Positions 16,140-50,251 of a stretch of DNA of 64,000 bases are shown piece after piece (position 1 is the first letter of the stretch; every line of letters starts with the position of its first letter). This DNA is from Rhodopseudomonas sp. P2A-2r (lineage in GTDB: Bacteria; Pseudomonadota; Alphaproteobacteria; Rhizobiales; Xanthobacteraceae), in NCBI RefSeq assembly GCF_026015985.1, contig NZ_CP110389.1, forward strand, positions 2,884,001 through 2,948,000, read 5' to 3'. The notes beneath the pieces were generated by a model, which saw nothing but the letters and a program-made list of their open reading frames with translations, did not search any database and was not told the origin of the DNA. Made by a program: the position numbers and the translations under genes.

Positions 16140-16213
16140 GCGGGTGTAGCTCAATGGTAGAGCAGCAGCCTTCCAAGCTGAATACGAGGGTTCGATTCCC
16201 TCCACCCGCTCCA
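16140..16213 (+). tRNA. tRNA-Gly (UCC)
   Basis: Cloverleaf with acceptor GCGGGTG / CACCCGC, D arm GCTC..GAGC, anticodon loop CTTCCAA (anticodon TCC), T arm GAGGG TTCGATT CCCTC, discriminator T and encoded CCA. Confidence 0.95.
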
Positions 16214-22204: not shown

Positions 22205-22486
22205 TTACGGATTGAATTGATGCGGATCAATTCTGGAGCGACCAAGGTCCCATGAGGGCGGCCTTACCGAGCTTTCGGTATCTCTTCGGCTCGACATAGC
22301 CTCCACATACATCTCCATCGATCCCATCACAGCATGTCCGAGCATCGCGTGAACCGAACTCGGGTCGGCGCCGTTCTGCAGCAGATGCGCTCCGAAGGCA
22401 TGCCGTAGCGTTTTCGGCGAAATTTTGTCGGCTTCCGGAATACCGGCCAGACTCGGCAGTCTCTTTGATCTCTTGGAAGGCAGCAT
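22205..22486 (-). pseudogene. Tyrosine recombinase, C-terminal fragment
   Basis: ISPKTLRHAFGAHLLQNGAD followed by VHAMLGHAVMGSMEMYVEA is the XerC/D-type catalytic end. It has the second arginine in the LRHAF block and the H-box histidine in LGHA; the nucleophilic tyrosine is probably Y of MEMYVEA. The N-terminal core-binding domain and the first catalytic arginine are missing, and the tail after the tyrosine is longer than usual. It cannot be active. It may be the relic of the integrase that brought in the surrounding region. Confidence 0.7.
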
Positions 22487-26688: not shown

Positions 26689-26907
26689 ACCGGAGGAGGG
26701 AGCCGTAAGGGTTGTGCTTGGTAGCATTTTGGCCCTGTACGGTCATTTGCGAGCGCCAACTGTGCGACGTAGAATAACAAAACGGCAATATTTTATACGG
26801 CGGACAGGCCGGCCTTTTGAGGAGGATCAACGTACACGAAAGCGAAAGGCGTATTGAAAACCATGATATAGTTGTTGAATCGTTCTCGCACGGTGCCCGG
26901 GGGTGTC

Positions 26908-28705
26908 ATGAAACACGTTTTACTTGGTGGCGTCGTTTTTGTTGCTCTACTTAAGGCGTCGGTTGGCGGGCAGGTAGCTAACGCTGCGGACATGCCCGTC
27001 AAAGCCGTGCCCTATGTGGCGCCGTGGAGTTGGACCGGCTTCTATATTGGTGCACACGTCGGCGGTGCCGTGGGCACGACCAACTTTTCCGATTCCTTCG
27101 GCCCTTCGATATTCGGCAAGGTCAGGTCTCCCGGTTTTTTCGGCGGCGTTCAGGCTGGCTACAATTGGGAGGCACCGGGATCGCCCTGGGTGTTCGGCGT
27201 TGAGGCCGACATTAGTATGTTAGATTCTGGACGGCACCATCACGTGCTTTGCGTCGGCGGGCGACGCGTTTAACTCAACCTGCCGAGTGCGTAAGGATGC
27301 GACGGGTACTTTGACCGGCCGGATTGGATACGCAGCTGGCCCGCAAGGGCATACTCTGGTCTATGCAAAGGGTGGTTTCGCGTGGGCGCATGACAAGATT
27401 GATATGGCAACAAATAACTATCTTGCTCCCGGTACTGGGTTCGGGCCCAGTGGACCCGCCATCGCGTCGAATAGCTCCAGATACAATACGTTCGGCGGGA
27501 CTGTCGGTGCTGGCGTCGAGCAGGCTTTGTCGCCAGCCTGGTCGCTGAAACTTGAGTATGACTACCTCGGTTTTGGCAGTTTCAACGTCGCAAATATTGG
27601 CAGCACCACGATTAACGGAGCGGGCGCGATCACGGCAGTTGTTCCTCCTGGTACATCCGGCGTAGCGCAGGGCATCCACGAATTCAAAGTCGGATTAAAT
27701 TACAAGTGGGGCGCAGACCCGGGGGCAAGCTGGGCCTTTGGTTCGCTTGGCTACCCTATGAAGGCTGCCTACAAGGCGCCGCCGCTTGTAAACTCGGCTG
27801 GCGGCTGGGCAGTGGAAGTTGGCGGTCGCTATGTGGCTGGTTGGAGCCAGTTCCAATATGGCTTGGGGCAACCGGAGGCCAATCCACTATCAAGCATCTC
27901 GCGACTGACCTACGACGATTTGATAACGAGTTCAGGCGAGGTGTTCGCGCGCGTGGATATGCCGATGAATTGGTTCGTAAAAGGGTTCGTAGGTGGCGGA
28001 ACTATAAAGAATGGTCATATAAACGACGAGGATTTCGGCATCGACCCGACTATGGCCTATACAAATACGAATTCTCCGGAAGTGAACGGGCGTTCTAGAT
28101 ACGCAGTAGTCGATGCTGGATACGATTTTCTACGGGGCCCTGCGTACAAGGTCGGAGCGTTTGCCGGCTACTTCTATTACCAACAAAAACTGAATGCTTA
28201 TGGCTGCACCCAAATAGCCAGCCCGGCCAATCCTGCCGCCCCTTGTGCCCCAGGAAACCCAGGGTTTCAGTCCGTCCCACCTACAGGCAGTGCAATCCTT
28301 ACTGAATACGACAAATGGCAGGCGTTACGTTTGGGAATCGCCGGAGAGATGATGCTGACTGATCGTATCAAGCTTAGTGGTGAAGCCGCGTATTTGCCCT
28401 ATGTAAAGTTCAACGGCGAAGACAACCATTTCTTCGGGAACAGCGGCGTACTCGCAAGCGTAGACCCGCAGTGGGGCCATGGCAGAGGCGTGCAGTTTGA
28501 GTCCATTCTGTCCTATATGGTTACTGACCAGTTCAGCATTGGTGTGGGAGGCCGATACTGGGGTATGTGGACGACGGACGCACAGAAAACACGAGTCATT
28601 GCTGAGGGTGCTCCCATTGTAGCTCCGCCACCGATTCCCTTTAGAGCAGCTGTTGAGCAATCCGGAGTGTTTGTGCAGGCGTCATACAAGTTTAACGGTA
28701 GCTAA
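26908..28705 (+). pseudogene. Outer-membrane protein, Omp25-like barrel plus second barrel domain, frameshifted
   Basis: One gene in two frames. The first (ATG 26908) has a signal peptide and the Omp25/31 block WSWTGFYIGAHVGGAVG, ending near VFGVEADISML. The second resumes at about 27231 with DGTITCFASAGDAFN and completes an Omp25-type barrel (RIGYAAGPQGHTLVYAKGGF, FKVGLNYKWG). It then adds about 300 residues forming another barrel-like domain (GGRYVAGWSQFQYGLG to GVFVQASYKF). The frame break is one base at about 27224-27231. The fusion of an Omp25-like barrel with a second omptin-like barrel is seen in relatives of this group (inference). Confidence 0.7.
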
Positions 28706-29378: not shown

Positions 29379-29478
29379 GTCGCGGTCGTTTGCTTCGTGA
29401 GATTCATAAGATGTTCCCTTGAGCGCCTAGCCTACCTGCCTCCGATCGAGTTTCATCGCACCGCCACAGAAAACCATC

Positions 29479-29488
29479 AATATAGATA
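29479..29488. promoter_or_regulatory. Shared upstream 10-mer (copy 1)
   Basis: AATATAGATA within an AT-rich promoter-like stretch 85 bp before the HTH gene at 29573. The same 10-mer occurs inverted upstream of the paralogous HTH gene (47231-47240). A TTGACA hexamer at 29505-29510 may be a -35 element. Proposed regulator binding site. Confidence 0.4.
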
Positions 29489-29572
29489 TATAGGATATCG
29501 CTTGTTGACATTAATACATTGTTTGAGAATGATGCTAGGCATTCTTCCGAAATCCCGCGGTGGGGCAATCCG

Positions 29573-29893
29573 ATGATCACAGCGGCTCAATTGGGGGCTG
29601 GCTGTGTGCTTGTCGGCATTGGTCAGCGCCAGCTCGCAGAATTGTCCGGGCTTTCCGTGCCTACCATTCAACAAATGGAGGCGAGTGAGACAATGGTTCG
29701 GGGTAATGCCGATTCACTGGCGAACCTTATTTCTGTATTCGACGTAGCGGTGATCGAGATGGTCGACGAAGGCGCCGTCGGGCCTCCATCGAGGCGTGGT
29801 GCGAGGCAGAAGATCAACTCGGGTTCGGCCGAGACCTGTCTGCACAATCAAGCCGAAAACAGAGCGGCGTGCGGTAAAAGGGTGGGCACGTGA
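29573..29893 (+). CDS. XRE-type helix-turn-helix regulator leading the hyf-like operon
   Basis: 106 residues from ATG 29573. The helix-turn-helix lies in GIGQRQLAELSGLSVPTIQQ followed by MEAS, as in Cro/CI-type proteins, with the rest small and polar. Its stop overlaps the start of the hyfB-like gene (TGATG), so it is translationally coupled to a membrane-complex operon. The protein encoded at 47272-47592 has the same length and about half-identical first 68 residues, diverging only in the tail. An autoregulatory role over the operon is inferred. Confidence 0.75.
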   Translation: MITAAQLGAGCVLVGIGQRQLAELSGLSVPTIQQMEASETMVRGNADSLANLISVFDVAVIEMVDEGAVGPPSRRGARQKINSGSAETCLHNQAENRAACGKRVGT

Positions 29894-31907
29894 TGCCTGC
29901 TGTCGTTTTACAAATGTCGTGTGTCGCAGGATTATTGGGAGTTGCTGTTCTTGCGATAGCTCTGGGTCGTTCGAAAAGCTCCACAGCAGTGGTCTACAGC
30001 GCTACATTCGCGGTGTGTGTGGTTGCATTGTTCGGGTCTATTCGCGGGCTGGTTGGCGGCACGGTGACCGCCTCCGACCTGACGCTTCCGATTGGATTGC
30101 CTTGGCTCGGGGCGCATTTCCGGCTCGACGCACTGGCCGCTTTTTTCCTAGTCGTCGTCAATCTCGGGGGAGCTGCGGCAAGCCTTTACGGCATGGGCTA
30201 CGGTCATCACGAGCCGGCGCCGCACCGCGTGCTGCCTTTTTCCCCGCCTTTTTAGCGGGCATGAACCTTGTCGTGATGGCGAGCGACGCGTTTTCATACT
30301 TGCTTTGCTGGGAGTTCATGTCGCTGGCATCCTGGGCGCTCGTTATGACGCATCACCGGGTGAAGGCCAATGCGAAGGCCGGTTACGTCTATCTCGTTAT
30401 GGCAAGCTTCGGCACGCTCGCGCTCCTGCTTGCCTTCGGCCTCCTTGCTGGCCCCGCTGGAAGTTATGAATTCGATGCAATTCGGGCTGCTCAGCACACG
30501 CCCTACGTGGCGACGTCGGTCTTGATCCTGATGCTGCTTGGGGCCGGTTCCAAGGCTGGCCTTGTGCCGCTTCACGTTTGGTTGCCGCTTGCTCATCCAG
30601 CTGCTCCCAGCCACGTCTCGGCGCTGATGAGCGGCGTCATGACGAAGGTGGCTATCTATGGTTTTATTCGGGTCGTATTCGATCTGTTGGGACAGCCGAC
30701 CTGGTCGGCGAGCGTCATCGTGCTCTTCCTCGGCGGGATCAGCGCCGTGATGGGAATCCTGTACGCGTTGATGGAAAACGACCTCAAGCGCCTACTGGCC
30801 TACAGCACGATCGAAAATGTCGGCATCATCTTCGTCGGTCTCGGGCTTGCCTTGGCATTTCAGGCAAATGGAATGAAACCCGCGGCCGCGCTCGCCTTCA
30901 CGGCAGCGCTGTTTCACGTGCTCAACCACTCTTTCTTCAAGAGCCTGCTGTTCTTCGGGGCAGGCGCCGTCCTGAATTCGACGGGCGAACGTGACATGGA
31001 CAGACTGGGCGGCCTCATCCACCGGATGCCGTTCACCAGCATCGTCTTTCTCATCGGCTGCATCGCAATCTCAGCGCTTCCGCCGTTCAACGGGTTCGTC
31101 TCGGAATGGCTCATCTTTCAGGCCATTCTGCAAAGTCCCGAATTGCCGCAATGGGGCCTGAAGATCATGGTGCCCGCAGTCGGCGCCGTCATGGCCTTGG
31201 CGGCGGCCTTGGCTGCAGCATGTTTCGTCAAGGTATTTGGCATCACGTTCCTCGGGCGGCCCCGCAGCCCGGCTGCGGAACATGCCGTAGAAGCCGACCG
31301 ATATTCGCTTTCGGCAATGGCAATCCTCGCCACGCTTTGTCTGTCCGCCGGAATTCTGCCGGGCCTGGTGATCGACGCCCTTTCGCCGATCGCCACGGCG
31401 ATCCTCGGCGCCCGCATGCCGATGCAGGCAGACATGCCGTGGCTGTCGATCGTGCCGATCGCGGAACGCCGGGGCTCCTACAACGGCATGCTTGTGATGG
31501 TGTTCGTCGCAGTATCGGCATCGCTTGCCGTCTATTTCATTCACCGCTTCGCCTCTCACGCGTTGCGGCGTGCGCCAGCGTGGGGTTGTGGCTTCGCCGA
31601 CCCGACCCCTGCGGCTCAGTATTCGGGCGGAAGCTTCGCTCAACCAATCCGTCGGATTTTCGGCACCGTTGTTTTTCGCGCCAGCGACCATGTCGATATG
31701 CCGGCGCCAGGAGATCCTCGGCCAGCGCAGCTCAGGATCGAACTGCATGATCTCGTCTGGGAGCGCATGTACATTCCCATCGTGGGCGCTGTCGGATACG
31801 CGGCGGACCGGCTCAATCGCCTGCAGTTCCTTACCATCCGTCGATATCTCAGCCTCGTCTTTGCCACCCTCGTCACGCTGCTCCTGGTGCTCGCGATATG
31901 GTCGTGA
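29893..31907 (+). pseudogene. hyfB: HyfB-like antiporter subunit, frameshifted
   Basis: A NuoL/M-like proton-pumping subunit of about 670 residues in two frames. The first (from about 29893) ends at HRVLPFSPPF; the second resumes AFFPAFLAGMNLVVMASDAF and runs to 31907. One more T in the run at 30237-30241 restores HRVLPFFPAFLAGM. Conserved features are the glutamate in CWEFMSLASW, the lysine in GAGSKAGLVPLHVWLPLAHP, and SALMSGVMTKVAIYGF. Hydrogenase-4 subunit B-type residues such as the C-terminal ERMYIPIVG are also present. It would form the distal proton channel of the complex. Probably intact if the T run is a sequence error. Confidence 0.85.
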
Positions 31908-32854
31908 TCTCCGACATCCTCGTTCAAGCTATCCAGATGGCGCTGGTGCTCCTGCTTGCGCCGTTGCTCACCGGTTTCATACGCAAGATCAAAGCTCGGT
32001 TGGTGCGTCGCAAAGGAGCCTCGATCCTTCAGCCGTACCGAGATCTACTGCGCCTTCTCAGGAAAGAGGTCGTCCTGGCCGACAACGCGTCGTGGCTATT
32101 CCGCGTGACGCCGTATGTGACATTTGCCGCGACTTGGGTCGCCGCCGCCCTGGTACCGACCTTCGCGACAGGACTCCTGTTCAATTGGACGGCGGATCTG
32201 ATTGCCATCGTGGCGTTGTTGGGAAGTGGGCGCTTCTTTCTGGCGCTTGCCGGGATGGACGTCGGCACAAGTTTTGGCGGCATCGGTTCAAGCCGGGAAG
32301 TCATGATCGCAGCCCTCGCCGAGCCGGCGATGCTGCTGATCATATTCTGCATGGCGCTGGTCGCGGGTTCCACCCAGCTTTCGACGGTCGCGGATTTCAT
32401 GGGGTCGTCCAACGTCGGCCTGCGGGTATCGCTCGGCATGGCGCTGGTCGCGCTGATCATGGTCGCTCTCGCTGAGAACGCCAGAATCCCGGTCGACAAT
32501 CCCGCGACCCACCTCGAACTCACCATGGTGCATGAGGCGATGGTGCTTGAATATTCGGGGCGCCACCTCGCCATGATCGAATTCGGCGCGTTTCTCAAGC
32601 TCCTGCTCTACATCTCGCTCATCGCCTGCGTCTTCTTCCCTTGGAAGATCGCCCTGTTCGGCGCCGGACCGCTGGCCTACGCTATCGGCGCGGGCGCTTA
32701 CATCATCAAGATTTCGGTCGCCGGCTTTCTGCTCGCGATGTTCGAGACGGCGACCGCCAAGATGCGCGTGTTTCGCGTTCCGCAGTTTCTCGGCGCCGCG
32801 CTCATGCTCGGCCTGCTCGGGACGCTCCTGCTGTTCGTATCGAGGAGTTTCTGA
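31898..32854 (+). CDS. hyfC: HyfC-like membrane subunit (NuoH family)
   Basis: 318 residues overlapping the hyfB end by 10 bp. A NuoH/HycD-family subunit with about eight helices. Conserved blocks are ILQPYRDLLRLLRKE near the N-terminus, the loop ENARIPVDNPATHLELTMVHE (which joins the membrane arm to the large subunit), and EYSGRHLAMIEF. It anchors the peripheral hydrogenase-like module to the antiporter modules and forms the quinone or proton entry path. The overlap and common orientation place it in the same operon. Confidence 0.9.
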   Translation: MVVISDILVQAIQMALVLLLAPLLTGFIRKIKARLVRRKGASILQPYRDLLRLLRKEVVLADNASWLFRVTPYVTFAATWVAAALVPTFATGLLFNWTADLIAIVALLGSGRFFLALAGMDVGTSFGGIGSSREVMIAALAEPAMLLIIFCMALVAGSTQLSTVADFMGSSNVGLRVSLGMALVALIMVALAENARIPVDNPATHLELTMVHEAMVLEYSGRHLAMIEFGAFLKLLLYISLIACVFFPWKIALFGAGPLAYAIGAGAYIIKISVAGFLLAMFETATAKMRVFRVPQFLGAALMLGLLGTLLLFVSRSF

Positions 32855-33522
32855 TGCAGATGCACAGCCTCGCCTTCGACATCTCCCATACGCTTGCCGG
32901 CGGACTCGTCCTCATCAGCTTCATGATGCTGTATCAGGACCGGCTCTATTCGCTGCTCAACGTATTCGCGGCGCACGCTCTGCTGCTCGCCCTTTCCGTC
33001 GCCTGGCAAGCCTACATCCAGGATGCGCCTCATCTCTACGTGACCGCGGCAATCGCGCTGGTCTTCAAGGCGATCATCATCCCGGTGGCGCTGCACCGCA
33101 TCGTCAAGCAGCTCGGCATTCACCGCGATATCGAGTCCGCCGTCGGCATTGGCTCAACGATGCTGGCGGGAATGGGTCTGGTCGCGCTGTCGATGGTATT
33201 GATGCTGCGGGTCACCGCGGAAGCCGATCCGCTGGCGCGGGAGGATATCGCTTTCGCCCTGTCGGTGGTGCTGCTCGGTCTTATGGTCATGGTGACGCGC
33301 CGCAACGCAGTCAGTCAGGTCGTGGGCTTTATGTCGCTCGAGAACGGATTGGTGCTGGCAGCCACAGGCGCCAAGGGCATGCCGCTCGTCGTCGAGATCA
33401 GCGTGGCCTTCTCCATCCTCATCGCCTTCATCGTCATCGGCATCTTCCTGTTCCGAATCCGCGAGCGCTTCGATTCGGTGGACATTTCCGCGCTGGACGA
33501 CTACCGGGACGGGCGACGATGA
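32854..33522 (+). CDS. hyfE: HyfE-like membrane subunit (NuoK-like)
   Basis: 222 residues; its ATG overlaps the hyfC stop (TGATG). Six or more hydrophobic helices include LAGGLVLISFMMLY and YVTAAIALVFKAIIIPVALH, and a NuoK-type part carries VVGFMSLENGLVLAATG with the conserved glutamate in a helix. The charged tail FRIRERFDSVDISALDD faces the cytoplasm. It is specific to hydrogenase-4-type complexes and connects the HyfB and HyfF antiporters. Confidence 0.88.
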   Translation: MQMHSLAFDISHTLAGGLVLISFMMLYQDRLYSLLNVFAAHALLLALSVAWQAYIQDAPHLYVTAAIALVFKAIIIPVALHRIVKQLGIHRDIESAVGIGSTMLAGMGLVALSMVLMLRVTAEADPLAREDIAFALSVVLLGLMVMVTRRNAVSQVVGFMSLENGLVLAATGAKGMPLVVEISVAFSILIAFIVIGIFLFRIRERFDSVDISALDDYRDGRR

Positions 33523-34970
33523 ACATCGATCACTTCAATCCGGTGGTGGCGGTCCTGCTCATCCCCATCGGGGCGGCGGCGGCGCTGGCCGTGCTGCCCG
33601 GCTACCGGCTGACGGCACGGCTCAACGTGGCGGCAAGTCTGGCGACATTCATTTCGGCGCTCTCGCTGCTCGCGATCGATCGCCCGCAGCCTGAGCAATA
33701 CGTGCTGATCGACGATTTGAACATCGTGTTCATCGTGCTCAACACCTTCGTGGGCTTCACCACATCCATCTTCAGCGCGAGCTACATCGCCCATGAACTC
33801 GAGACCGGCCGGCTGACGCCCGCATACTTGCGATTCTATCACGCGATGTATCAGATCATGATGTTCGGCATGAATCTCGCATTCGTATCGAACAATATTG
33901 GCCTGATGTGGGTGGCGGTCGAAATCGCGACGCTGAGCACGGTGCTGATGGTCGGCATCTATCGCACCCACGCCGCCCTCGAAGCGGCGTGGAAGTACTT
34001 CATCCTCGGCAGCGTTGGCATCGCCTTCGCGCTGTTCGGCACCATCCTGGTCTACATGGCGGCGCGACCGGTTGTCGGAGAGGGCCAGGACGCCATGGTC
34101 TGGACGCTCCTGGTCCAGCATGCGGCGGATTTCGACTCCGCCCTTCTGAACGTCGCTTTCATATTCCTGTTTCTCGGTTACGGCACCAAAGTCGGCCTGG
34201 CGCCGCTGCATGCATGGCTTCCCGACGCGCACGCCGAAGGTCCGACGCCGATATCGGCCGTGCTGTCGGGGCTGCTCCTGAATGTCGCGCTCTATGCGCT
34301 ATTGCGCTTCAAGATACTGCTTGCCGTCAATCCGAACGCGATCGCGCCCGGTCCACTGATGATGACGATGGGGTTGCTTTCGCTCGTCTTCGCAGCCTTC
34401 ATGCTCTACCGCCGCCGCGACATCAAGCGCCTGTTCGCCTATTCCTCGATCGAGCACATGGGCATCATCGTCTTTGCGTTCGGCATGGGCGGCCCGCTCG
34501 CGAACTTCGCGGGGCTGCTGCACATGGTCATGCACAGCCTGACCAAGTCGGCGATCTTCTATGCCGTCGGCCACATCTCGCAGGTCAAGGGAACCCAGCG
34601 AATTGCCCGGATCCGGGGGTTGACGGAGAGCCATCCCATGCTCGGCTGGGGTCTGGTGGTCGGTGTCGCCGCGATCGCGGGACTGCCGCCTCTCGGGATC
34701 TTCATGAGCGAATTCCTCGTCGTGAGCTCCACCTTCGCGCGGCAGCCGTTGCTCGCGATCATACTCGTCTTCGGAATTTTGCTGGCCTTCGGTGCGTTGA
34801 TGCTGCGGCTCACAAGCGTCGCGTTCGGCGATCCTCGCGGCAGCCTCGCCCCTTCAAACGCTTCCTATGTTCCGATGGTTGCGCATCTCTCGTTGGTCTT
34901 GATCGCGGGCGTATATCTTCCGTCGCCGCTCGTCGTCTGGTTCCAGCATGTCGCAAATCTTCTCGGATAG
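33519..34970 (+). CDS. hyfF: HyfF-like antiporter subunit
   Basis: 483 residues; ATGA overlap with hyfE. A second NuoL/M/N-like subunit with about 13 helices. Key lysine and histidine region GYGTKVGLAPLHAWLPDAHA, then EGPTPISAVLSGLLLNVALY, and the proton-path block SSIEHMGIIVFAFGMGG. HMVMHSLTKSAIFYAVGHIS carries another conserved lysine. Having both HyfB and HyfF antiporters implies two to three coupling sites per turnover. Length and motifs are normal. Confidence 0.9.
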   Translation: MNIDHFNPVVAVLLIPIGAAAALAVLPGYRLTARLNVAASLATFISALSLLAIDRPQPEQYVLIDDLNIVFIVLNTFVGFTTSIFSASYIAHELETGRLTPAYLRFYHAMYQIMMFGMNLAFVSNNIGLMWVAVEIATLSTVLMVGIYRTHAALEAAWKYFILGSVGIAFALFGTILVYMAARPVVGEGQDAMVWTLLVQHAADFDSALLNVAFIFLFLGYGTKVGLAPLHAWLPDAHAEGPTPISAVLSGLLLNVALYALLRFKILLAVNPNAIAPGPLMMTMGLLSLVFAAFMLYRRRDIKRLFAYSSIEHMGIIVFAFGMGGPLANFAGLLHMVMHSLTKSAIFYAVGHISQVKGTQRIARIRGLTESHPMLGWGLVVGVAAIAGLPPLGIFMSEFLVVSSTFARQPLLAIILVFGILLAFGALMLRLTSVAFGDPRGSLAPSNASYVPMVAHLSLVLIAGVYLPSPLVVWFQHVANLLG

Positions 34971-34987
34971 CGTGAGGACAGAGGGCG

Positions 34988-36496
34988 ATGCCGTCGTTGA
35001 CCAATCTCTTGCAGGAAGGATGCCCAGTCCAGCACAGCCCATGGCCGCGATCCGCGGTCGATGCCTCCGTCTGGAAACGTGCAGCAGACGAACTGGCGCA
35101 CGGCAACTGGAATCTGCTCGGCCTGTGGGCGGAACCTTCGACGGTACATATGGCCTTGATGGACGAGAAGACGGCAGAAATCGGTGTCATCAGCCTTGAT
35201 TGTCCCGATCGCAGTTATCCGTCAGTCAGCAAGCATCATCCGCCGGCGGTTCGATTGGAGCGCGCCATCCGCGACCTGTTCGGACTGTCGGCAGAGGGCT
35301 TGCCCGATCCGCGTCCGTGGCTCGACCATGACCGTTGGGACGTGCGCTTCCCGTTGGGAGATCGCCTGGACGGCCTTTCGCAGCTATCGCCCTATCCCTT
35401 CCTGCCTGTGAAAGGCGATAGCCTGAACCAGATCGCCGTCGGTCCGGTGCACGCGGGTATCATCGAGCCCGGACATTTTCGATTCACAGCAAGCGGGGAG
35501 ACCATAGTCCGACTGGAACAACGGCTGGGCTATGCGCACAAAGGTGTCGAGGGACTCATGCTTGGCGCCAGTCTCGAGCGGGCCGTCCGACTGGCTGGAC
35601 GCGTATCGGGCGACAGCACTGTCGCCTATGCCTATGCGTTTTCGAGAGCGGTAGAAGCGGCCCTTGACCTAGTCGCACCTGATCGCGCGGTCTGGCTGCG
35701 CGCGTTGCTGGCGGAACTCGAGCGGCTTGCCAACCATCTCGGCGACTTCGGCGCCATCTGCAACGACGCCTCGTTCGGCTTGATTCACGCGCATACCAGC
35801 GTGCTACGCGAGAGCATACTGCGCGCTGCCGGTACCGCATTCGGTCACCGCCTGATGCGGGACATCATCCTACCCGGGGGTGTTGCCTGTGACCTAAGCG
35901 ACGGCGGGAGAGGGGCGATCCTGACCGCGGTCCACGACGTCTCTCTCCGTTTACCCGCGCTGGTCGAACTTTACGACAATACAGCATCCCTGCAGGATCG
36001 TACGGTTGATACGGGTTTGCTCAAGCCCGCATTGGCCAAACAATATGCAGCAGGGGGTTACATAGGTCGCGCTTCCGGAAGATCCTTCGATGCGCGGCGG
36101 TCCCTTGCCTATCCGCCCTATGATAGCCTGCGCTTCGAGGTGCCGACCCTGCATGAGGGGGATGTCAATGCGCGCGTGTGGATCCGTGTGCGGGAAGTCG
36201 AGCAGTCTCTTTCACTAATTGACGAGATACTGACCCGGCTTCCCCGGGGCCCGACGGGCGAGCATGTCGGGAGCCAGCGCGAGGTACGCGAAGGCATGGC
36301 GATCGTCGAGGGGTTCCGCGGCGACATCCTTGTCTGGCTTCGCTTGCGCGAGGGGCAGGTCGAAAGATGTCATCTGCGCGACCCGTCGTGGTTTCAGTGG
36401 CCACTTCTTGAGGCCGCAATTGAAGGCAATATCGCCGCCGACTTCCCGCTTTGCAACAAATCCTTCAACTGCTCCTATTCAGGCCACGATCTCTGA
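34988..36496 (+). CDS. hyfG: Hydrogenase-4-like large subunit (HyfG/HycE-NuoCD type) without NiFe cysteines
   Basis: 502 residues. The N-terminal 150 form a NuoC-like domain (WDVRFPLGDR). The large-subunit core follows with NQIAVGPVHAGIIEPGHFRF and RLGYAHKGVEGLM. At residues 205-210, where group 4 hydrogenases have RVCGICG, the sequence is RVSGDS, so both L1 cysteines are gone. At the C-terminus, where DPCxxC is expected, it ends LCNKSFNCSYSGHDL; two cysteines occur but not in the L2 pattern. There is no protease-cleaved tail. A NiFe site therefore cannot form, and the subunit resembles those of energy-converting hydrogenase-related (Ehr) complexes. Confidence 0.85.
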   Translation: MPSLTNLLQEGCPVQHSPWPRSAVDASVWKRAADELAHGNWNLLGLWAEPSTVHMALMDEKTAEIGVISLDCPDRSYPSVSKHHPPAVRLERAIRDLFGLSAEGLPDPRPWLDHDRWDVRFPLGDRLDGLSQLSPYPFLPVKGDSLNQIAVGPVHAGIIEPGHFRFTASGETIVRLEQRLGYAHKGVEGLMLGASLERAVRLAGRVSGDSTVAYAYAFSRAVEAALDLVAPDRAVWLRALLAELERLANHLGDFGAICNDASFGLIHAHTSVLRESILRAAGTAFGHRLMRDIILPGGVACDLSDGGRGAILTAVHDVSLRLPALVELYDNTASLQDRTVDTGLLKPALAKQYAAGGYIGRASGRSFDARRSLAYPPYDSLRFEVPTLHEGDVNARVWIRVREVEQSLSLIDEILTRLPRGPTGEHVGSQREVREGMAIVEGFRGDILVWLRLREGQVERCHLRDPSWFQWPLLEAAIEGNIAADFPLCNKSFNCSYSGHDL

Positions 36497-36509
36497 GGAA
36501 TAGCACAAG

Positions 36510-37016
36510 ATGCGCAAGCTGCTTTTTGAAAGCCTGTTTCGCCGGCCGTTCACCGAAAAGGCGCCGTCTGGAGACGATGAAGCGCAGGCCCAACTGGCAA
36601 GGGCTGTGGGCATTGCCGCGCGAAAGCGTCTCGGAAAGAGCCTCTCTATACGAGAAGTCGATGCCGGCTCCTGCAATGGGTGCGAACTTGAAATTCATGC
36701 GTTGAACAACGCATACTATGATGTGGAGCGCTTCGGATTCCGGTTCGTAGCGTCGCCACGTCATGCCGATCTGATGTTGGTAACCGGACCGGTGACGAAG
36801 AATATGCGCCAGGCGTTAGAGCTTACTTACCATGCAATTCCCAATCCGAAATGGGTCGTCTCCGTAGGCGATTGCGGCCGAGATGGCGGCTGCTTTGCTG
36901 GAAGCTATGCTGTGGTCGGAGGTGTTTCGCAAGTAATTCCTGTCGATCTTCATATTCCCGGTTGTCCTCCGCCGCCGATCAAGATTTTACGGGGCCTGCT
37001 TGCATTGTTCGATTGA
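36510..37016 (+). CDS. hyfI: HyfI/HycG-like small subunit (NuoB family)
   Basis: 168 residues, 13 bp after the large subunit. All four ligands of the proximal [4Fe-4S] cluster are present: Cys55 and Cys58 (GSCNGCELEIHAL), Cys122 (VGDCGRDGGC) and Cys152 (PGCPPPP). The fold is that of NuoB. It would pass electrons next to the large subunit and the NuoH-like membrane subunit. Last gene of the complex. No ferredoxin-like subunits (HyfA/HyfH), formate dehydrogenase or hyp maturation genes follow. Confidence 0.9.
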   Translation: MRKLLFESLFRRPFTEKAPSGDDEAQAQLARAVGIAARKRLGKSLSIREVDAGSCNGCELEIHALNNAYYDVERFGFRFVASPRHADLMLVTGPVTKNMRQALELTYHAIPNPKWVVSVGDCGRDGGCFAGSYAVVGGVSQVIPVDLHIPGCPPPPIKILRGLLALFD

Positions 37017-45051: not shown

Positions 45052-46248
45052 TCAAGCGATGGCCTCGAGGAGCGCCATACCTTCGCCGCGCCAATGGCCG
45101 ACGCCGATGGCCACGACTCGAGACGGCTTTTCTTTCGTCTCGACCTCAAAACCGGACGGGTCGTTCGAAGGAAATAATTCGCCGCGCGATATGCTCAGCG
45201 CCGCCATCGCCATCGCCAGCGGAAATTGAGCTTCCACCAGATGTCCGAAGGAAGTTCCGACTGCGCGAACCGGAGTATCGGCATGGTCCGAAAGGAAGGC
45301 ACTTTCTTCAGCGGCCGCAGGGGACGCACCAGAGGCCGCGGTGACGATCGCCGATGGCTCTTCCTCGATTTCCAAAGCCTCCCACAGGCCTCCTAGAACG
45401 GCTTCCACCCCGCCAGCCGCAGAGCGAGAGGAGTGCGCGGAAACGACGTTGACGAGCCGCGCAAACGGCACCGCGCCGCGGGACTCGGCATGGGATCTGG
45501 ATTCGAGCACGAGAAATACTCCGCCGGACCCGAGAGCGAATCCACCACCGTTGCGGGACCAGACGGGAGACATCTTTTCCTTGAGATTGAAGCCCCCGCA
45601 TTCGTACAGCATCAGCATTTCTTTGCGCTCGGCGTTCTGAGCCGCGCCGACAAGCGCGATCTCGCTTTGGCCGGCCGCTATCTTTGCCCATGCGATTCGG
45701 ACGGCGTCTACACCGGCGGCTTCCTCGCCCATGAACGTCCGCGACGAGCCCGATACGCCGTGGACGACGGAAATGTTGCCTGCCAGCAGATTGGAAAGCT
45801 GCGCGAGAAATAGCGTCGGACGCAGGTCATTCATAAGCCGTTCGTTAAGCATTTCAGGCCCGGAATTCCCGCCGCCGCGCGCTGTCAGAATAGCGCTGTC
45901 GACCGCCAGGTCGCGTTCACCGCCGCCGGCCGCGACGATCATGTCCGTCCGCGCCAATATCTCGCTGTTGTCCTTGATGCCTGCGGAATCCAGGGCAAGG
46001 CCCGCCGCATAGGTGCCGATGCGCTGCCACGCCTGCATCTGGCGCTGGTCGCCCTTTTTGGGGATCTGAGCATCAAGTGCGAGCGGAACCAAAGGATGTA
46101 CCATCCAGGGAGCAAATGTTGTTTCATCCACATTGATGTGGCCCGTTTGGAGCGCGCGCCAAGTCGCTTCCAGCCCGTCTCCGAGGGACGAGACGATTCC
46201 AATGCCGGTGATCCAAGTCTCGCGGCGCTCCGGGGTGGACTTCTTCAT
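45052..46248 (-). CDS. Ketosynthase-like protein lacking the catalytic cysteine
   Basis: 398 residues from ATG 46248. The thiolase fold is recognised by WITGIGIVSSLGDGLEATW and the C-terminal AVGTSFGHLVEAQFPLAMA. Where the active-site cysteine should be, the sequence reads VVHGVSGSSRTFMGEEAAG, and the HGTST histidine block is replaced by TAASGASPA; only one histidine (SFGHL) remains. It therefore cannot condense and more likely shapes chain length or binds the partner ketosynthase, as KS-beta/CLF proteins do. ATGA overlap with the upstream gene; 13 bp before the catalytic ketosynthase. Confidence 0.75.
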   Translation of the reverse strand: MKKSTPERRETWITGIGIVSSLGDGLEATWRALQTGHINVDETTFAPWMVHPLVPLALDAQIPKKGDQRQMQAWQRIGTYAAGLALDSAGIKDNSEILARTDMIVAAGGGERDLAVDSAILTARGGGNSGPEMLNERLMNDLRPTLFLAQLSNLLAGNISVVHGVSGSSRTFMGEEAAGVDAVRIAWAKIAAGQSEIALVGAAQNAERKEMLMLYECGGFNLKEKMSPVWSRNGGGFALGSGGVFLVLESRSHAESRGAVPFARLVNVVSAHSSRSAAGGVEAVLGGLWEALEIEEEPSAIVTAASGASPAAAEESAFLSDHADTPVRAVGTSFGHLVEAQFPLAMAMAALSISRGELFPSNDPSGFEVETKEKPSRVVAIGVGHWRGEGMALLEAIA

Positions 46249-47030
46249 CTGCGCGCGCCACAGGCAACATCGCGGCTGCGCAGTCTTCCTCGGCGCAGCG
46301 ACCACTCTTCATGGTTGTTGCGCATAGCGTCCCTGAGGGAAACACGCCTAGTTATCTGCTTCTCCGGAACGCAGACGATAACTGCATTACGATCTTCAAT
46401 CCCTTGCTCGTCGACGATCCATGCATGCAGGCTGTCACCAGCCAGGCGCGCGGCGATCCGGTCCGGGATAGGGTCGATGTCGTTCGAGGCCGTGACGTTC
46501 ATCACGATCCGCCCGCCGGTGGCCAGTCGGGCGCGGATCGCGTCGCAAGTCTCAGCATCAAACTCCTCGTTGAAACGGAAGCCCGGGCCGCCCACGTCGA
46601 TTGCGATGCCGTCATACTGCGTGCGATCCTCGAAAACGTACTTTCGGAAGTCGGAGACCATGCAAGGCAGATCTTCGGGTAGCTTGAAAAACTGTTGCGC
46701 GATCACGAAGCTGATTGGATTGTTGTCGACGATCGTCAGTTGTTTCCCGAGCCCGGCCAGTTTGGTGGCAAGGTTTCCGCCGCCGCACCCCAGGACAAGA
46801 ATGTTATTCGACGTTCGCAGCAACTCTTCCATCAGCTTCACGTAGGTAAAGATGCTTTCGCCGTCGGGCGTCGCTTGGCTTTGCCGGACCCCTTCTTCGA
46901 AATACACACGCGTGCCGTCCGACGAATACTCGGCGATCTCGATCTCTCCGTTTCGCCCCAAGTAACGTCCTAACAATCGCACGGCGACACCATATAAGAG
47001 CCAAGGCATTAAATAACATGCATAAAACAT
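46245..47030 (-). CDS. Spermidine synthase-like SAM-dependent protein
   Basis: 261 residues. After a hydrophobic N-terminus (MFYACYLMPWLLYGVAVRLL) comes a Rossmann fold with ILVLGCGGGNLATKLAG (SAM-binding motif I), LTIVDNNPISFVIAQQFF (motif II aspartate) and YDGIAIDVGGPGF (motif IV-like). This order is that of aminopropyltransferases and related methyltransferases. The polyamine-binding residues are not obvious, so a methyltransferase role is equally possible. First gene of the ketosynthase operon, overlapping the next by ATGA, and divergent from an HTH regulator. Confidence 0.7.
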   Translation of the reverse strand: MFYACYLMPWLLYGVAVRLLGRYLGRNGEIEIAEYSSDGTRVYFEEGVRQSQATPDGESIFTYVKLMEELLRTSNNILVLGCGGGNLATKLAGLGKQLTIVDNNPISFVIAQQFFKLPEDLPCMVSDFRKYVFEDRTQYDGIAIDVGGPGFRFNEEFDAETCDAIRARLATGGRIVMNVTASNDIDPIPDRIAARLAGDSLHAWIVDEQGIEDRNAVIVCVPEKQITRRVSLRDAMRNNHEEWSLRRGRLRSRDVACGARR

Positions 47031-47207: not shown

Positions 47208-47240
47208 TTGAAGCGCGGATTTGTATAGTGTATCTATATT
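47208..47240 (+). promoter_or_regulatory. Promoter and shared 10-mer (copy 2) before the HTH gene
   Basis: TTGAAG at 47208-47213 and TATCTA at 47231-47236 with 17-bp spacing form a sigma-70-like promoter 35 bp before the HTH start codon. The -10 box overlaps TATCTATATT, the reverse complement of the AATATAGATA found upstream of the paralogous HTH gene at 29479-29488. A protein bound there would block this promoter. Confidence 0.45.
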
Positions 47241-47271
47241 AGGCGAACATCGCACCGGAGGCCGACAGCTT

Positions 47272-47592
47272 ATGATTACCGCCAACCAACTCAGGGCCGC
47301 TCGCGCGTTGCTGAACATAGATCAGCGGCAAACGGCCGAACTGGCGGATCTTTCCGTGCCCACCATCCAGCGCATGGAGGCGAGCGACGGTGTTATTCGC
47401 GGCAACGTTGATTCCCTGATGAAGTTGGTCTCTGCGCTTGAAAGCGCCGGGGTCGAATTGATCAATCCCGACAGCACCAGTTCAGCCACAGGTCGGGGCG
47501 TCCGGCTAAGAGAGCATATCACGAAGCCGAAGATGAAGAACATCAAGCCGCCCAAGCCTTCAACTTCGCGAAGCCTGGAGCGCGCTCGATAG
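47272..47592 (+). CDS. XRE-type helix-turn-helix regulator, paralogue of the one at 29.6 kb
   Basis: 106 residues, the same length as the protein encoded at 29573-29893 and about half identical over the first 68. HTH in NIDQRQTAELADLSVPTIQR followed by MEASD and IRGNVDSLMKLVSALE. The tail is different and basic (PKMKNIKPPKPSTSRSLERA). It is divergent from the ketosynthase operon (243 bp gap) and 36 bp upstream of an SMP-30-like gene, so it could control either. Small one-domain regulators of this type often repress themselves. Confidence 0.78.
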   Translation: MITANQLRAARALLNIDQRQTAELADLSVPTIQRMEASDGVIRGNVDSLMKLVSALESAGVELINPDSTSSATGRGVRLREHITKPKMKNIKPPKPSTSRSLERAR

Positions 47593-48964: not shown

Positions 48965-50251
48965 CAGTCTGCTGAAAAACCCTAGATTTGAGAGTTTTCT
49001 TGTCTCTCTGCGGTCGTTATCGAAGTGGGGAGCGGTGAGGGAGCGCGCTTATCGGCGGGGTGCCGGGGTTGTCCCCGAAGCCGGTGGCCTATGCTGCGAG
49101 CAGTTTGGGGATGCGGATCAGATTGTAGGCGATCAGGTTAAGGAGAAAGTCGGCGGCGACGCGACCGATGCCGCGATGCTTGGTCTTGCGCATGGTGCCG
49201 TGTTGTTTGCCCCAGCCGAAGATGCACTCGATCATCGCTCGGCGTGATTGCGACATGCCATAGCCGGGATGTCGTGTGGTGCGATCGTCGATGGCGCTGG
49301 TGCGGGTCTTGCCGGCTTTGGTGACGGCGTTGTTTTGCGTCACATGCGGCGTCACGTCGATGGCGCGAAGCTTGGCCACATGATCGGCGGTGTCGTAGGC
49401 CTTGTCCTCACCGGCCGTGATGCGGCGGCGGGCCGTCTTGCGCCGAGCCTTCAACATCGTCTCCGAAGCGCGGCGCTCGGCCGTGCCATTGGCGTGCGTA
49501 ACCATGCCGGCGACTGCCAGGCCATGCCGGTTCTCCATGGTCGCGTGGCCCATATAGCAAAGCCTGGCCTCGCGCCCGGCCGCCTTGCGGTAGAGCCTGC
49601 TGTCGGGATCGCTGGTGCTGGCATGGGTGTCGTTCTTGCGCTTCTGGCCATGGAAATTGGCGCCGTTGTCATCGTCGCCACTGCCGTCCTTGGGACGAAA
49701 GCTCTTCTGCGAAGCCCAGGCTTCGATCAGCGTCCCGTCCACCGAAAAATGCTCGTTCGACAATAGCGGCCTGACCTGGGAATGGTTCAGGAGCCTGGCC
49801 ATGAACTTCGCAAACACCTCGCCGTTCTGCAGCCTGTCGCGGTTCTTGGTGAAGGTGGTCGGGTCCCAGACCGGATCGTCCGGTGAAAGCCCTACGAACC
49901 AGCGATATAAAAGATTATAGTTCAGCTGCTCCATCAGCTGGCGTTCCGAGCGGATGCCGTAGAACACCTGCAGCAACAGCGCGCTCAGTAATTGTTCGGG
50001 AGGAATCGAAGGACGTCCCTCGCTGGCGTAAAGCTTCGCCAGGCTACGGCTCAACTCACCCAGCACATCCCGGACAAGCTCGCGGATCTTCCTCAGAGGG
50101 TGGTTCGTCGGCACCCGCTTGTCTGGTGAAATGTACGAAAACAACCCGCCCTGATCCACAAAATTGCCGCGCATGCTCGTCTCCACCGATTCGAGATGAC
50201 AAAGTGAATCATCAAGAAAACCGCTTGGCGAGCTGGTTTTTCAGCAGACTG
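48965..50251 (-). mobile_element. Intact IS5-family insertion sequence
   Basis: 1287 bp with perfect terminal inverted repeats CAGTCTGCTGAAAAACC and a CTAG target duplication (48961-48964 and 50252-50255), matching the YTAR target of the IS5 group. One transposase gene fills it. The perfect ends and intact gene suggest recent insertion and current mobility. Confidence 0.88.
49089..50174 (-). CDS. IS5-family transposase
   Basis: 361 residues from ATG 50174. N-terminal DUF772-like domain (ASEGRPSIPPEQLLSALLLQ), then the DDE core: HFSVDGTLIEAWASQKSF (first D), GEDKAYDTADHVAKLR (second D) and RAMIECIFGWGKQHG (catalytic E). The tail is LNLIAYNLIRIPKLLAA. Length and residues are all in place, so active transposition is likely. 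Confidence 0.92.
   Translation of the reverse strand: MRGNFVDQGGLFSYISPDKRVPTNHPLRKIRELVRDVLGELSRSLAKLYASEGRPSIPPEQLLSALLLQVFYGIRSERQLMEQLNYNLLYRWFVGLSPDDPVWDPTTFTKNRDRLQNGEVFAKFMARLLNHSQVRPLLSNEHFSVDGTLIEAWASQKSFRPKDGSGDDDNGANFHGQKRKNDTHASTSDPDSRLYRKAAGREARLCYMGHATMENRHGLAVAGMVTHANGTAERRASETMLKARRKTARRRITAGEDKAYDTADHVAKLRAIDVTPHVTQNNAVTKAGKTRTSAIDDRTTRHPGYGMSQSRRAMIECIFGWGKQHGTMRKTKHRGIGRVAADFLLNLIAYNLIRIPKLLAA

Follow-up and report, generated by a model that had tools for sequence, protein, structure and literature searches.

A hyf gene block of Rhodopseudomonas sp. P2A-2r very probably encodes a compact energy-converting hydrogenase-related complex without hydrogen chemistry

The hyf locus and its gene content

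The genome of Rhodopseudomonas sp. P2A-2r carries a block of hydrogenase-4-like (hyf) genes within a 64,000-nucleotide stretch of NZ_CP110389.1, here called the window, to which coordinates refer unless a C1 position is given. The block occupies 29893-37016 on the plus strand and comprises six adjacent genes, recognized with Pfam and NCBIfam, in the order HyfB, C, E, F, G, I. The features of the locus are as follows.

29505..29510, plus strand: promoter-like TTGACA hexamer (consensus match only), lying in AT-rich DNA 5' of the HTH gene
29573..29893, plus strand: small helix-turn-helix (HTH)-like gene (HTH_3 E 0.0016, below cut-off)
29893..31907, plus strand: hyfB, NuoL/Mrp-type antiporter-like subunit (NF005086 matches in two frames)
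31898..32854, plus strand: hyfC, NuoH/HycD-like membrane anchor (PF00146 E 6.7e-39)
32854..33522, plus strand: hyfE, HyfE-type membrane subunit, distantly NuoK-like (PF00420 and NF008556, weak)
33519..34970, plus strand: hyfF, antiporter-like subunit (NF005043 921 bits, cut-off 533)
34988..36496, plus strand: hyfG, large subunit with a NuoC-like N-terminus and a NuoD/HycE-like domain (S207, S210, S496 and G499 at the Ni-ligand columns)
36510..37016, plus strand: hyfI, small subunit with a CxxC...C...C set for one [4Fe-4S] cluster in hydrogenase spacing

HyfE is weakly assigned, both matches lying under their cut-offs (PF00420 E 5e-4; NF008556 E 1.1e-21), and its start was refined to 32854. The stop of the HTH-like gene overlaps the start of hyfB, and this gene is probably the first of the hyf unit. 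An earlier note on this DNA, made from the letters alone, had described six adjacent Hyf genes; their presence and order stand, while hyfB is not one open frame and the unit begins earlier, at 29573. The TTGACA hexamer is present in 30 of 85 upstream regions, and a scan of 85 such regions gave FNR motifs in one, sigma-54 motifs in two and NifA motifs in eight. Iron-sulfur subunits of the HyfA/HyfH (HycB/HycF) type were not seen among the genes of the window block, and eight molybdopterin oxidoreductases of the host genome found none in the window (E 1e-5), in agreement with the earlier view that neither ferredoxin-subunit nor formate dehydrogenase genes accompany the block.

The former nickel site of the large subunit

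HyfG residues 69-499 align with HycE of the solved Escherichia coli formate hydrogenlyase (FHL) complex (7z0s_E, E 3.1e-54). In a large-subunit alignment of 147 rows, the HycE nickel ligands C241, C244, C531 and C534 fall on HyfG S207, S210, S496 and G499. The rows comprise 130 energy-converting hydrogenase-related (Ehr) proteins, five of FHL type, seven others without Ni ligands, two Ech-like proteins with them, the divergent L180 and two NuoD, in groups defined after the alignment had been seen (identity to the window protein of at least 40% for Ehr rows and at most 33% for the rest). All four columns hold cysteine in the control rows (5/5 FHL-type and 2/2 Ech-like), and a second alignment agrees, with cysteine at all four in 15/15 HycE rows. 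Among the 130 Ehr rows, cysteine occurs at the first position in two, at the second in one and at the third or fourth in none, no row keeping more than one. HyfG has none of the L1 and L2 cysteines expected of a group 4a hydrogenase, and shows the absence of NiFe-coordinating residues that marks the Ehr class.

The motif RVSGDS at residues 205-210 and the C-terminus ending LCNKSFNCSYSGHDL are both exactly as first reported. Among the nearest proteins listed, 120 in number, RVSGDS is present in 115 and a close variant of LCNKSFNCSYSGHDL ends all 120; because they are shared so widely, neither is a product of chance. The claim that the large subunit has lost its NiFe site holds at the level of the clade (all 130 Ehr rows), not as an event in this strain. 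Two C-terminal cysteines, C489 and C495, were considered as alternative ligands, a placement that the earlier note had named as fatal to its proposal, and were rejected: they align with a HycE isoleucine and with HycE Pro530, respectively. Both are absent from all 64 rows of a sister group, whose named sources include Rubrivivax, Polaromonas and Methylibium.

These columns bear directly on whether the complex could be a real hydrogenase with unusual ligands. E. coli HycE is its closest solved relative, and a set of 248 genomes of the host's family (99 with an Ehr HyfG, read by hand from the search listing at 50% identity or more with partial matches included, and 149 without) shows the maturation protein HypD in 42 of the 99 and in 23 of the 149 (odds ratio 4.0), the opposite of the naive expectation; this association probably reflects lineage effects. 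The window protein retains none of the four Ni-ligand cysteines, and HypD, the one Hyp protein searched for, is absent from the whole host genome, as it is from 57 of the 99 Ehr genomes. Judged by HypD alone, the host thus lacks the maturation system expected with a group 4a enzyme; the earlier statement that no hyp genes follow the block agrees with this genome-wide absence, although the window's open reading frames (ORFs) were not each scanned for hyp. Ligand columns, control rows and the absence of HypD together led us to reject the hydrogenase explanation, to which we give next to no credence.

The surroundings of the former site are strongly conserved. According to an excerpt of PMC9474812 that names the proton-handling residues of HycE, the canopy residue Asp529 shows strict conservation across FHL and complex I. 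HycE Glu193 corresponds to Glu160 in 129/130 Ehr rows, and HycE His284, Arg395, Glu437 and Arg478 are kept throughout (130/130; His250, Arg361, Glu403 and Arg444). The columns of HycE Asp192 and Ser283 are changed to Ile159 and Asn249, each in 129/130. Asp209, which lies between former ligands one and two, is identical in every Ehr row, as are Lys491, Asn494, Arg444, His250 and Gly499; in the sister group the same holds for 64/64 rows, except for Lys491 (63/64).

Phylogeny and assignment to the Ehr class

A tree was built from 90 of the 147 rows, taking at most 25 close rows, random or chosen, and all distant ones, by a quick search with support from the Shimodaira-Hasegawa-like approximate likelihood ratio test only. 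The Ehr rows and the very divergent L180 form one set with 100% support. Its partner in the tree is another set lacking Ni ligands (97%), and the two are separate from the FHL, Ech-like and NuoD rows. The tree carried long-branch warnings, and the Ehr character needs two changes on it because the very long branch of L180 falls inside Ehr. Five other hydrogenase-like clusters without Ni ligands (L203, L204, L205, L208 and L211) have Gly or Trp at the Asp529 column and are a second, different Ehr-like group; L208 and L211 each hold two large-subunit copies.

The hyf complex, a member of the complex I/group 4 hydrogenase superfamily, is a compact six-subunit form of the established Ehr class and occurs across Pseudomonadota. 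Residue columns, tree, HypD absence and gene content all uphold the earlier description of an Ehr-type complex without NiFe ligands, and make it very probable that the complex belongs to this class and neither makes nor uses H2, an assignment for which published Ehr complexes were compared by description, the tree itself holding no named Ehr sequence. The nearest named relatives are mostly Bradyrhizobium.

Small subunit and pump arm

HyfI retains C55, C58, C122 and C152, as the earlier note had listed. They form the hydrogenase-type CxxC...C...C set, unlike the tandem cysteines that bind cluster N2 in NuoB of complex I, and the protein aligns with HycG free of gaps at the cluster motif, which is not shortened as in the membrane-bound sulfane sulfur reductase (MBS) of Pyrococcus furiosus.

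Two explanations meet their test here. In the first, the complex would be a complex I-like quinone reductase: its pocket would be a quinone site, and the whole would be a small pump of the donor:quinone oxidoreductase kind. The NuoD columns whose His and Tyr contact quinone hold Ile159 (129/130 rows) and Gly208 (128/130) in HyfG, and with the missing tandem cysteines this leaves the proposal unlikely, if the most serious of the rivals. In the second, an MBS-like reductase, the proximal cluster itself would reduce polysulfide. MBS belongs to the same superfamily and likewise lacks a NiFe site, according to an excerpt of PMC7684303; the same excerpt gives its motif as three residues shorter and two ligand cysteines as kept. 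HyfI has the hydrogenase spacing and HyfG retains 0/4 ligand cysteines, so that MBS-like catalysis, disfavoured by the length of the cluster motif, appears very improbable.

The membrane arm has kept most of its proton-handling residues. Of 123 HyfB rows, 122 or all 123 preserve the columns of NuoL E144, K229, K305 and K399 (with Glu in the case of K399); HyfF preserves those of NuoM E144, K234 and E407 in 128 or 129 of 129, and HyfC those of NuoH E157, D213, E220 and E228 in 124/124. HyfB and HyfF are the Mrp/complex I antiporter-like subunits expected of an Ehr complex, and from these residues proton pumping by the hyf complex is plausible. The earlier note's reading of the complex as a quinone- or protein-linked ion pump may hold: it has most pump residues on its side, but the changed His and Tyr columns of HyfG against its quinone variant.

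Conserved neighbourhood and candidate partners

The complete set B-C-E-F-G-I is present in 121/129 Ehr loci; in the other eight, at least one member is missing from the fetched stretch. Related loci were searched by tblastn (E 1e-6) with E. coli HyfA, HyfD, HyfH, HycB, HycF, NuoI, NuoJ and HyfR. HyfA, HyfD, HyfH, HycB, NuoI and NuoJ were found in none of the 129 fetched stretches, a search that strongly diverged ferredoxins could escape; a HycF-like match occurred in one locus (L008) and HyfR-like matches in two (L079 and L184), all outside the hyf block. The iron-sulfur subunits that a group 4a operon would hold (HyfA/HyfH or HycB/HycF) were thus not found in these blocks. The eight host molybdopterin oxidoreductases matched one locus of 129 (L079, 23% identity). 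L195 and L201 have two hyfB-like genes in tandem within the block.

Among 1187 neighbour ORFs of 138 loci (crude ORF calls, clusters judged by eye), the HTH-like gene occurs in the neighbourhood of 80, in 78 directly upstream on the same strand; the other neighbours are confined to some lineages, and this approach yielded no partner.

The frame break in hyfB

The NF005086 model matches hyfB in two pieces, with positions 2-120 in the frame 29893-30255 and positions 116-668 in another frame from about 30,230 to 31907. The switch, near 30,240, was missed in the earlier note. Among 140 related loci, 23 were without one half in the search, and of the 117 testable ones 116 have one open hyfB frame, L193 being the sole exception. 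Other genes of the same assembly are affected similarly: ileS is split over two frames (C1:5445121-5448434; L236 1322-4635), as is nuoG (C1:4107809-4111441; L225 310-3942), and nuoH is fused to nuoI. The split ileS is the only one found with PF00133, the other long PF00133 protein being ValS, and since a cell could hardly live with its sole detected isoleucyl-tRNA ligase gene split, the assembly very probably contains indel errors. The frame breaks of the host assembly are probably sequence errors, and for hyfB an assembly error is likelier than decay; in an assembly prone to indels its break should not be taken as biological without resequencing.

The operon of this strain might nevertheless be a decaying, non-functional import. 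Its hyfB is split, its HTH gene has diverged (59-66% identity to three relatives), IS66 and other transposases lie close by in a region of lowered guanine-plus-cytosine (GC) content, and the ratio of nonsynonymous to synonymous divergence (dN/dS), rough since dS is at least 0.8, slightly exceeds that of a control pair for most genes. Set against this are the ileS and nuoG splits and the nuoH-nuoI fusion, which point to errors in the assembly, and the other five hyf genes, which are open with low dN/dS. Decay seems on balance rather unlikely.

Elsewhere in the window, an outer-membrane beta-barrel gene (26872-28705; C-terminal part PF13505) is apparently split into frames 26872-27273 and 27287-28705.

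Acquisition and co-occurrence

An Ehr HyfG is found in none of 17 congeners, 12 of which are at least 94% complete. Similar DNA is held by 36 plasmid records of PLSDB, of which 20 are predicted to be conjugative and one covers at least 80% of the query; the part of the window that resembles a Bradyrhizobium plasmid runs from 29474 to 37001. Window GC dips between 16 and 48 kb. The simplest reading is that the hyf block was probably acquired horizontally, the alternative being loss in the congeners.

The island-like stretch 16000-48000 has tRNA-Gly (16140-16213) at its left edge and an integrase fragment at 22205-22486; a search for attachment repeats at the tRNA ends gave none of 15 nt or longer. 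IS66 pieces lie at 37.7-40.2 kb and a DUF772 transposase at 49089-50186, and around the hyf block there are also an IS110-family transposase and a Mu-type transposase, which we take to be IS21-like. A second HTH-like gene (47221-47592), 50% identical over 78 residues to the one before hyfB, adjoins a methyltransferase-domain gene (46245-47030) with relatives close to the hyf genes of 27 further loci, an arrangement that suggests rearrangement.

Within the 248 genomes, CoxL and nifH were considered as partners and both were set aside. CoxL is rarer with Ehr (above cut-off in 10/99 genomes vs 29/149; p 0.05), and nifH is present in 37/99 Ehr genomes vs 20/149 others with a weak link within genera (Mantel-Haenszel odds ratio 3.1, z 1.7). 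The host is the only nifH-positive genome among 18 of its genus, with two genes (C1:1280878-1281696 and 1311691-1312509).

The nifH distribution bears on a further rival, a reverse machine in which proton-motive force would be consumed to drive electrons uphill to a carrier of the ferredoxin type. It would accord with the retention of most pump residues and of a hydrogenase-type cluster motif, with nifH in the host and with the excess of nifH among Ehr genomes; against it stand the weak within-genus association and the 62/99 Ehr genomes without nifH. We regard such a machine as improbable.

A proposed mechanism

The features above can be joined into a scheme for a redox-driven Ehr proton pump, drawn from residue conservation, which is the likeliest of the explanations considered and as a whole may equally prove right or wrong. 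The donor would be soluble and probably of low potential, either a ferredoxin or some unlinked dehydrogenase; it would dock on HyfI and reduce the HyfI cluster. From this single cluster, electrons would then reach a polar acceptor lodged in what was the NiFe pocket of HyfG, and the acceptor would be protonated via Glu160 and the retained His250, Glu403, Arg361 and Arg444; protonation of the acceptor would in turn drive H+ translocation through HyfC, HyfB and HyfF.

Several observations weigh against this picture of an Ehr pump, beginning with the HypD association. The canopy Asp529 column is Asn494 in 130/130 Ehr rows, so that substrate protonation may differ. In the membrane arm, the NuoM K265 column is Asn in HyfF and the NuoK glutamates E36 and E72 are replaced in HyfE (Met, Ile), both as in E. 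coli HyfF and HyfE; HyfC is changed at NuoH E36 (Ile/Val), E216 (mostly Ala), E218 (mostly His) and E241 (Ala). The HTH-like gene is the sole widely recurrent neighbour, with no donor or acceptor identified, and hyfB is not open in the host assembly.

A bolder proposal concerns the pocket itself: the NiFe site may have been rebuilt as an oxygen-ligand pocket that binds either a hard metal ion or a polar small-molecule substrate, for a novel pump-coupled reaction. The candidate residues are Ser207, Asp209, Ser210 and Ser496, with Asn494, Lys491, His250 and Arg444, and their mutual facing is taken from homology with HycE, the structure model being weak at 498-502 and in the beta1-beta2 loop. An initial prediction built on 16 close sequences scored poorly (mean predicted local distance difference test score 46.7) and was not used. 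This rebuilding strikes us as a long shot, put forward tentatively.

Significance

Ehr complexes are widespread, with functions described, in the excerpts of the literature consulted, as unknown or merely proposed. The compact form occurs in well-studied rhizobia, such as R. johnstonii 3841 (plasmid pRL11), and on plasmids. Its clade-wide Ser/Ser/Ser/Gly plus Asn signature, combined with the lack of a recognizable input subunit, is noteworthy, and the active-site signature is precise enough for mutation studies. The complex could reveal which parts of complex I remain necessary when both NiFe and the known quinone contacts are missing; an oxygen-ligand pocket, if real, would tie proton pumping to a reaction so far without precedent in the complex I superfamily. 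Current names of the large subunit in the sources ('Ni,Fe-hydrogenase III large subunit', 'hydrogenase expression protein HypE' and 'NADH-quinone oxidoreductase subunit C') would mislead predictions of H2 metabolism.

Comparison with known systems

A search of open-licence papers returned no experiment on a six-subunit Ehr complex in Rhizobiales. Other Ehr complexes likewise combine group 4 hydrogenase-like and antiporter-like subunits without NiFe ligands; what sets the hyf block apart is that its set is compact (HyfB-C-E-F-G-I) and accompanied by an HTH-like gene, and that no linked input subunit was found. An excerpt of PMC6349859 proposes formate dehydrogenase plus NuoE/NuoF-like partners for other Ehr complexes, and Geobacter sulfurreducens had higher levels of Ehr subunits with formate (PMC7894505, excerpt); an excerpt on comammox Nitrospira (PMC10284858) calls their function unknown. 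The Mycobacterium tuberculosis operon rv0082-rv0087, six genes including hycD, hycP, hycQ and hycE, regulated by rv0081 and presented as a putative [NiFe]-hydrogenase complex in an excerpt of PMC6901956, is likened to the hyf block by description only.

E. coli FHL-1 and FHL-2 (Hyc and Hyf; PDB 7z0s) are the closest solved relatives by sequence and fold and have the shared genes in the same order, but the window complex is without Ni ligands and HyfA, HyfD and HyfH occur in 0/129 related loci. The MBS of P. furiosus also joins a pump arm to a redox arm without NiFe; it differs in its two ligand cysteines, shortened cluster motif and two-cluster subunit MbsN, as given in the PMC7684303 excerpt. 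Respiratory complex I differs from the hyf complex in its NuoE/F/G genes, its tandem cysteines and the quinone His/Tyr columns that are changed in HyfG, and shares with it homologous subunits of the NuoB, CD, H, L and M types.

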